Shown here piece by piece: positions 9,455-11,712 of a DNA stretch of 24,724 nt. The stretch is from a virus: IMG/VR virus record IMGVR_UViG_3300032116_001250, positions 1 to 24,724 of that record; one strand, written 5' to 3'. Each line of letters begins with the position of its first letter. Within the stretch, counting starts at the first letter, position 1. Under the pieces are notes generated by a model. The model saw only the letters and a list, made by a program, of their open reading frames with translations, had not been told where the DNA came from and made no database searches. The position numbers and the translations under genes were made by a program.

Positions 9455-9596
9455 TACACCGCGGACGGTGTAGTATGGCGGCACGAGGGGAGCGGCCCAC
9501 TCGCAAAACTCAACCGCCGACCGAACAGCGCACACGAGGTCGTAAAACCCGAGCGCAACACGGCCTGACTAAGCCCGCAACGCCGGTTGGCCCGGC
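9455..9596 (+). other. Intergenic stretch with three strong hairpins (possible structured RNA)
   Basis: The 187-bp gap between the zinc-ribbon gene and the next small gene holds unusual folding potential. Hairpin 1 has arms TACACCG 9455-9461 and CGGTGTA 9466-9472 around a 4-nt loop. Hairpin 2 is nested: outer GGCGG 9477-9481 with CCGCC 9514-9518, inner CGAGGGG 9484-9490 with CCC 9496-9498 and CTCG 9500-9503. Hairpin 3 pairs GCCGG 9582-9586 with CCGGC 9592-9596. No T-run follows any hairpin, so a terminator is unlikely. It may be a structured leader, a small RNA, or (hairpin 1) a protein operator. An in-frame ATG at 9475 would extend the next gene through here, but the resulting peptide is low-complexity and basic. 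Confidence 0.35.
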
Positions 9597-9615
9597 ACCC
9601 CATTACACCCACACC

Positions 9616-10737: not shown

Positions 10738-10919
10738 GCCGGCCATTCAAACGCGGCGAGGAGAACCACGCCGTGATCCTGAGCGAGGAGCTGGTGCGGG
10801 AGCTGCGCCAGCTTCGCGTTGATGGTCTTAGTTACCAGCAGCTTGCTGATCGGTATGAAATCGACAAGAAACACGCATGGCGCATTTGCCAACGTCTCGC
10901 GTGGGGGTGGCTGGATTAG
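10734..10919 (+). CDS. Small homeodomain-like HTH DNA-binding protein
   Basis: A 61-aa protein whose second half is a resolvase/homeodomain-like helix-turn-helix: EELVRELRQLRVDGLSYQQ, then LADRYEIDKKHAWRICQRL, in which LSYQQLADRYEI is the first helix and turn. The N-terminus is basic (RPFKRGEEN). Proteins of this size are usually local transcription factors. It is the last gene of the 9616-10919 chain (ATGA with the previous gene) and ends 22 bp before a palindromic operator. A GTG two codons upstream is an alternative start. Confidence 0.75.
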   Translation: MSRPFKRGEENHAVILSEELVRELRQLRVDGLSYQQLADRYEIDKKHAWRICQRLAWGWLD

Positions 10920-10941
10920 TTCTACACACTAGTCAGCTTTG

Positions 10942-10991
10942 ATGGTACAAATGTACCATTGATAAACATGATTCAATGTGCTACAATGGTA
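10942..10991 (+). promoter_or_regulatory. Sigma-70-type promoter with palindromic operator
   Basis: TTGATA at 10959-10964 and TACAAT at 10982-10987 are separated by exactly 17 bp, giving a strong consensus-like promoter in a locally AT-rich patch. A perfect inverted repeat ATGGTACAAATGTACCAT (10942-10959, 8-bp arms, 2-bp centre) abuts the -35 box. A third ATGGTA half-site (10986-10991) covers the end of the -10 box, and CATTGA/TCAATG (10957-10962 and 10973-10978) forms another repeat across the spacer. This layout suggests repression by a dimeric regulator, most simply the winged-helix product encoded directly downstream. Confidence 0.75.
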
Positions 10992-11024
10992 TCGAAGGGA
11001 GAGATCCCTACTGCACATCGACAA

Positions 11025-11306
11025 ATGAAAACCGCACTTACCGACGCTCAGGTTCGGGTCATGATGGCTATACGCCGTTCTGGCCGTGTGCCTAGTAACA
11101 CCACGGTTCCTCTGCTGCACCGCCTAGCCGCCAAAGGCTTCATCAAGCATCTGCACATTTTTGACGAACAGGGCAAGCTTATTGTCCCTAACCGAAAACC
11201 TGATCAGATGGAGTTGACTGAGGAAGGGGAAAAAGCCCTTGCGCAAGTTGAGGCTGCCCAAGCCTGTCATGACCTAGCTGCTCGCCTGAGTGGCATCCTG
11301 AGCTGA
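11025..11306 (+). CDS. Winged-helix (MarR-like) small regulator
   Basis: A 93-aa protein with a winged-helix pattern: helix 1 LTDAQVRVMMAIRRSG, a recognition region NTTVPLLHRLAAKGFIKHL, a beta wing (HIFDEQGKLIVPNRKPDQMELT) and a C-terminal helix (EEGEKALAQVEAAQACHDLAARL). This is inferred from pattern, not a named family. The frame is open to 10959, but that start lies inside the promoter. Given the -10 box at 10982-10987, transcription should start near 10994, so ATG 11025 gives a leader of about 30 nt; ATG 10986 is excluded. With its own promoter, operator and terminator, it forms an independent unit within the plus-strand small-gene region. Confidence 0.75.
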   Translation: MKTALTDAQVRVMMAIRRSGRVPSNTTVPLLHRLAAKGFIKHLHIFDEQGKLIVPNRKPDQMELTEEGEKALAQVEAAQACHDLAARLSGILS

Positions 11307-11316
11307 TCTCACGCAT

Positions 11317-11342
11317 AAAGCCCGCCATGGAGCGGGCTTTTT
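11317..11342 (+). terminator. Intrinsic terminator of the regulator cistron
   Basis: A perfect 9-bp stem AAAGCCCGC (11317-11325) and GCGGGCTTT (11332-11340) around the 6-nt loop CATGGA, running into a five-T stretch (11338-11342). It lies 10 bp after the regulator's stop codon. Confidence 0.9.
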
Positions 11343-11344
11343 AT

Positions 11345-11437
11345 TTGCCGGGGAGCCTGATGCCTTCGGGCTGAAAGCCATACAAGACCCATGGGGGGAA
11401 AGCAGGGGGCGTACAGTCGCTATCCATCCCCCGGCAA
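11345..11437 (+). other. Intergenic element closed by long-range inverted repeat (possible structured RNA)
   Basis: Between the terminator and the next gene, TTGCCGGGG (11345-11353) pairs perfectly with CCCCGGCAA (11429-11437) and encloses about 75 nt. Inside is GCC-TTCG-GGC, a UUCG-tetraloop hairpin (about 11362-11371), a CCCATGGG palindrome, and a G-run (11405-11409) that could compete for the C-run. This may be a structured leader of the 78-aa gene or a small RNA. No T-run or known RNA family is recognised. Confidence 0.3.
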
Positions 11438-11460
11438 CACAACTAGTCAACATCACTTCT

Positions 11461-11697
11461 ATGTCTGAACTTTCACCCGCTGCTCAGGTCGTACTGGCTG
11501 CTGCCAATTGCGCTTGCTGTTACGGCCCGGATGACGTGCTCAATGATTCTCGATGGATTGCTGCCGCCGCCCTTCGAGCTGCTGCGGATCAGGTGGTGCC
11601 GGTGCCGATCAAAGCTCAAACTCCAGAAGAGCATTGGGCACTGCTTGGCGTTAAAAACCGACTGCTTGCCATCGCGGATGAGCTTGAAGCCCAGTAG
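11461..11697 (+). CDS. Small hypothetical protein, 78 aa
   Basis: A 78-aa, Ala-rich helical protein: SELSPAAQVVLAAANCACC, then DSRWIAAAALRAAADQVV, then NRLLAIADELEAQ. The layout (two helices around RWIAAAALRAAADQV and a final helix with ADELE) is common among uncharacterised proteins of cyanobacteria and their phages, as far as I recall, but no function is known. The start follows AACATCACTTCT with no Shine-Dalgarno. Confidence 0.75.
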   Translation: MSELSPAAQVVLAAANCACCYGPDDVLNDSRWIAAAALRAAADQVVPVPIKAQTPEEHWALLGVKNRLLAIADELEAQ

Positions 11698-11712
11698 TCA
11701 GACCCACTAGCC

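Follow-up and report, generated by a model that had tools for sequence, protein, structure and literature searches.

Phage genes controlled by the host SOS repressor LexA have been described in several systems. In the LexA-controlled antirepressor units of coliphage 186 (Tum), N15 (AntC) and the Salmonella Gifsy phages (GfoA/GftA), a small phage gene located outside the structural genes is driven by a promoter that carries a host LexA box, and the Gifsy boxes are preceded by terminator-like palindromes (PMC3121763). The P1 promoter of Bacillus phage GIL01 (host LexA, gp7/phage LexA homologue) likewise combines host LexA sites with small phage regulators (PMC4551915, PMC6182141). On the host side, cyanobacterial LexA boxes follow the consensus RGTACNNNDGTWCB, with the lexA boxes of Synechococcus CC9605 and CC9902 reading GGTACAAATGTATT (PMC3091678), and the lexA, recA and umuC genes of the SOS response of marine Synechococcus are mitomycin-inducible (PMC3744912). 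Little is known about whether and how cyanophages detect damage to their hosts, or about the control of lysogeny and delayed lysis in Synechococcus. LexA-controlled phage regulators are familiar from 186 Tum, the Gifsy antirepressors and GIL01, but a literature search of incomplete coverage turned up no cyanophage for which a LexA box has been reported.

The DNA analyzed here (the window, a virus record of 24.7 kb) is part of the genome of a Synechococcus-type siphophage and encodes proteins with matches to the following families: tail tape measure, endolysin, RecT-like annealing protein, exonuclease VIII and helicase/methyltransferase. Among named phages, the Synechococcus siphophages S-CBS3 and S-CBS1 are closest to it. 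Because Synechococcus is the host of these relatives, the host of the window phage is most likely a Synechococcus/Cyanobium-type cyanobacterium. Near the middle of the window lies a short cistron (Table 1), which probably represents a moron cassette consisting of a gene for a MarR-like regulator with its own promoter and terminator, the promoter carrying a host LexA box beside its −35 hexamer.

Table 1. Features of the cistron and of the segment that contains it (window coordinates)
Feature	Position	Strand	Remark
Inserted moron-type segment	10917..11712	+	begins at the TAG stop of the 63-aa gene (upstream) and ends immediately ahead of the ATG of the 73-aa gene (downstream)
Direct repeat ACTAGTCA, 8 bp, left copy	10928..10935	.	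flanks the cistron
Inverted repeat ATGGTACA-AA-TGTACCAT	10942..10959	.	sequence
LexA (SOS) box-like site GGTACAAATGTACC	10944..10957	.	adjoins the −35 hexamer; matches RGTACNNNDGTWCB
Promoter-like TTGATA-N17-TACAAT	10959..10987	+	best promoter-like match of the window; extended −10 TG at 10979–10980
Third half-site CAATGGTA, weak	10984..10991	.	complement of TACCATTG (10954–10961)
93-aa MarR-like winged-helix protein (predicted)	11025..11306	+	otherwise orphan; ATG 11025, TGA 11306
Terminator-like hairpin and U-run (predicted)	11317..11348	+	intrinsic type
Direct repeat ACTAGTCA, 8 bp, right copy	11442..11449	.	start of a linker conserved in other cyanophages
78-aa gene MSELSPAAQ...	11461..11697	+	the insert's second gene; belongs to a cargo family that recurs in cyanophages

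The cistron shares with the Tum, AntC and Gifsy units a small gene outside the structural genes and a promoter with a host LexA box, and we count the terminator-like palindromes of the Gifsy boxes as a further likeness. It differs from them in that its product is predicted to be a MarR-like DNA-binding protein, for which no phage repressor that it might inactivate is known. Furthermore, those units belong to temperate phages, and in the window we noticed no integrase. Unlike the temperate phage GIL01, the promoter of which works with a set of boxes and a LexA-binding cofactor, the cistron has one box and one accessory gene. Compared to the cyanobacterial LexA regulon (lexA, recA and umuDC boxes), the 14-bp box is the same, but it precedes a phage gene, and its GGTACA/TGTACC halves are more symmetric than those of any box in 18 host-type genomes.

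That the cistron is a moron-type cassette inserted into an otherwise coupled gene pair is well supported by comparison with related phages. Of 24 relatives in which the 63-aa gene is present, 22 have an empty site, where the stop codon of this gene and the beginning of the 73-aa gene overlap by a few bases; only L026 and L029 carry intervening sequence. In the window, the same two genes are 793 bp apart, and the space is occupied by the 93-aa cistron and the 78-aa gene. The cistron is thus an extra unit, with a predicted promoter and a predicted terminator, set between two genes that are direct neighbors in relatives, which agrees with the sequence-only reading of a self-contained moron set apart from the coupled operons on either side. 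The linker at the right copy of ACTAGTCA recurs without change in other cyanophage contigs, and several of these have little else in common with the window; an exact scan with the left insertion junction found it only in the sister contig.

The predicted TTGATA-N17-TACAAT promoter, which had been proposed to abut the repeat, is indeed located directly after it, and no other site in the 24.7 kb reaches a 10/12 match. A predicted terminator that closes the unit is also present, as had been read: folding of 11300–11352 gives −17.1 kcal/mol with a z-score of only −1.2, and terminator-like matches in the window occur at the chance rate. Such a terminator would stop readthrough into the following genes. 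In relatives, these genes adjoin the upstream operon directly, and no good promoter-like site is found between the terminator and these genes (11345–11712).

The inverted repeat was initially taken for a perfect 18-bp palindrome. Its two 8-bp arms do match perfectly (8/8), but the AA center is not self-complementary, so that 16 of the 18 positions pair overall. Inverted repeats with 8-bp arms and a spacing of 0–4 nt are expected about three times by chance in such a sequence and one was seen; because of this, the repeat by itself proves nothing. The additional half-site proposed to cover the −10 end exists as an 8-nt sequence and could be due to chance. What is above chance is that the repeat lies in an intergenic gap right beside the best promoter, and that it fits a LexA box exactly.

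The idea of a LexA box arose after the sequence had been viewed, and the consensus itself was taken from the literature. The box of the window is identical to that of the CC9605 and CC9902 lexA genes in 12 of 14 positions, namely the first 12 bases. Given any repeat of the 8+2+8 type, the inner six bases RGTACA would be found by chance in about 2 of 4096 cases, or about 1 in 2000 at equal base frequencies. Eighteen genomes of Synechococcus, Cyanobium and related organisms, gathered via a sigma-factor query, were used for comparison; they represent the likely host type. All 18 picocyanobacterial genomes encode LexA, and a box variant is found upstream of lexA in each of them (e.g. GGTACAAATGTATT, GGTACACCTGTATC, GGTACATATGTATT and GGTTCATCTGTATT), several with a GGTACA left half. 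On the forward strand, RGTACANNTGTAYY occurs 40 times in these genomes, compared to six occurrences of the reversed control, and its sites lie upstream of lexA, of a UmuD-like gene and of further genes. The exact palindrome GGTACANNTGTACC is absent from all 18, and the host lexA genes have no clear promoter just downstream of the box, unlike the window, so the geometry differs. With a LexA matrix built from boxes that were chosen by consensus, with the window site left out, this site scores 18.9 bits, the next best site elsewhere in the window 9.7 bits and the best site in 80 related loci 16.0 bits.

Matches to the box are found elsewhere, too. The loose consensus RGTACNNNDGTWCB in its reversed control form also matches once in the window. 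In viral contigs, 107 of the 119 occurrences of the exact GGTACAAATGTACC are located inside long open reading frames, which means that chance matches exist; none of the other 12 has a 10/12 promoter beside it. RGTACANNTGTWYY is absent from the records of 50 related phages, which total about 1.1 Mb. Among the relatives, LexA-consensus matches are present in L023, L084 and L069. Those in L023 and L084 lie within genes and were taken as chance matches; L022 has the same 14-mer as L023. Such matches inside genes, and the number of inverted repeats expected in the window, are what one would cite for an ordinary moron with a constitutive promoter of its own and a chance repeat that has no regulatory role. 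We consider this improbable: no second repeat of this kind was seen, and the one that exists lies at the best promoter and conforms to the LexA box, scoring well beyond any other site of the window. The box is known from one phage only, L004/L350 being near-identical copies of it.

The repeat also contains GTA and TAC half-sites and is centered near −43 from the predicted start, a layout compatible with an activator such as NtcA. NtcA sites have the form GTA-N8-TAC. The half-sites of the window are separated by N6 and a good −35 hexamer is present, which makes binding of NtcA or another such cyanobacterial regulator very improbable; NtcA itself was rejected on the spacing. We regard the operator most probably as a host LexA (SOS) site and not as one of the 93-aa protein.

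The 93-aa protein is likely to be a DNA-binding regulator. The reading frame and its length are as first described, and the winged-helix fold is backed only by a single-sequence model of modest quality (pLDDT of 71). This model matches MarR/PadR winged-helix structures, with a best Foldseek E-value of 0.006 and a best Z-score of 8.8. The predicted fold thus resembles that of MarR/PadR regulators, but the protein is shorter than most of them and displays no significant sequence match to the family: searches found no Pfam or PHROG family, the NCBIfam match is weak and not convincing, and phmmer against MarR chains gives an E-value of only about 1.2, short of an assignment by MarR family profile. 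A relationship to the DNA-binding domain of LexA was considered and rejected, as BLASTP produced no alignment. In viral contigs and phages, there are no homologues beyond the near-identical sister contig (L004/L350); a pattern scan of 84,980 species genomes found none, and neither did a search, run with no positive control, of 151 genomes of one picocyanobacterial family. At the DNA level, the cistron has only short matches to named phages, located at its terminator end. The start codon is most likely ATG 11025 but is not certain because the frame stays open upstream to 10959 and contains further ATGs at 10968 and 10986. Codon statistics weakly favor ATG 11025 over the upstream starts, as the upstream codons score poorly, and there is no close Shine-Dalgarno sequence before it.

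The sequence-only reading regarded the palindrome as the operator of the 93-aa protein. This is now the less likely interpretation because the palindrome reads as a LexA box of picocyanobacteria. MarR-type proteins often bind to palindromes in the promoters of their own genes, the 93-aa protein looks MarR-like in its predicted fold, and the palindrome adjoins the −35 hexamer and ends 66 nt before the ATG, so autoregulation, alone or jointly with LexA, is possible. A protein that represses itself independently of host LexA is nevertheless unlikely: the near-exact copy of a host lexA box would have to be a coincidence, and there is no homologue in which such a palindrome is conserved upstream of the gene.

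If the site is a LexA box, as the comparison of sequences suggests, LexA binding, repression and SOS induction at the cistron promoter can be inferred as follows. In an undamaged host, the host LexA would occupy the box adjoining the −35 hexamer and block the promoter. Upon damage to host or phage DNA, RecA-promoted cleavage of LexA would free the promoter, and the 93-aa protein would be made. We guess that this protein would then re-set transcription of phage or host genes. The cistron would then operate in the manner of the LexA-controlled units of 186, N15 and Gifsy and of GIL01. Such SOS control would fit a regulatory role in a phage reacting to host DNA damage. A bolder proposal, which we regard as rather doubtful, is that a cyanophage from a largely integrase-free group reads the host SOS state via an unusually symmetric copy of the host lexA box, which might in addition serve as a decoy for LexA while phage copies accumulate, and answers with a dedicated MarR-like regulator, which would make the cistron the first LexA-wired switch of a cyanophage, delivered as a cassette. 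A cyanophage regulator gene preceded by a LexA box offers a concrete and easily testable link between the host SOS response and phage gene expression, and its location in a cassette suggests that SOS control can arrive in this small form.

The suggestion of a lysis-lysogeny type switch found no clear support. No S24/CI-type repressor domain is found in the window, which is a genome fragment, or in 19 relatives, and a Phage_integrase domain is present in three of 23 relatives (a search that left out the window) but in neither S-CBS1 nor S-CBS3. Because no repressor target was found and integrases occur in so few relatives, the 93-aa cistron is not classed as an antirepressor unit. Part of the phage group may be temperate. 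Tyrosine integrases are encoded by L342, L343 and L344 (records of L053, L054 and L082). The freshwater phage S-LBS1, the architecture of which is described as similar to that of S-CBS1 and S-CBS3, encodes an integrase, but no sign of integration was obtained upon induction with mitomycin C (PMC6157547).

Several other features of this phage group were observed. The early regions of S-CBS3 and S-CBS1 contain a gene for a group 2 sigma factor (L002 6210–7109 and L003 9034–9924, respectively), and no counterpart was noticed in the window. An Rfam search of the whole window returned no family. This includes an element of about 120 nt (9483–9604), which has no unusual fold and is located outside annotated genes in S-CBS3 and S-CBS1; it is conserved at the DNA level (75–95%) in these two and in about two dozen related phages.

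Small cargo genes of cyanophages (window 10917–11712; L026, L029/L349, L345–L348, L351 and L352–L368) are joined by conserved stop-linker-start sequences and have the appearance of a cassette system in which short linkers are shared. The linker TAGTTCTACACACTACGAGGTTCAACA-ATG is found exactly in 18 viral contigs, some of them 71–85 kb long, after differing upstream genes and mostly before genes of the MTQEHPITPPPELV type. Another linker, TAGTCAACATCACTTCTATGTCTGAACTTTC, precedes genes of the MSELSPAAQ type, several of which form one array in L029.
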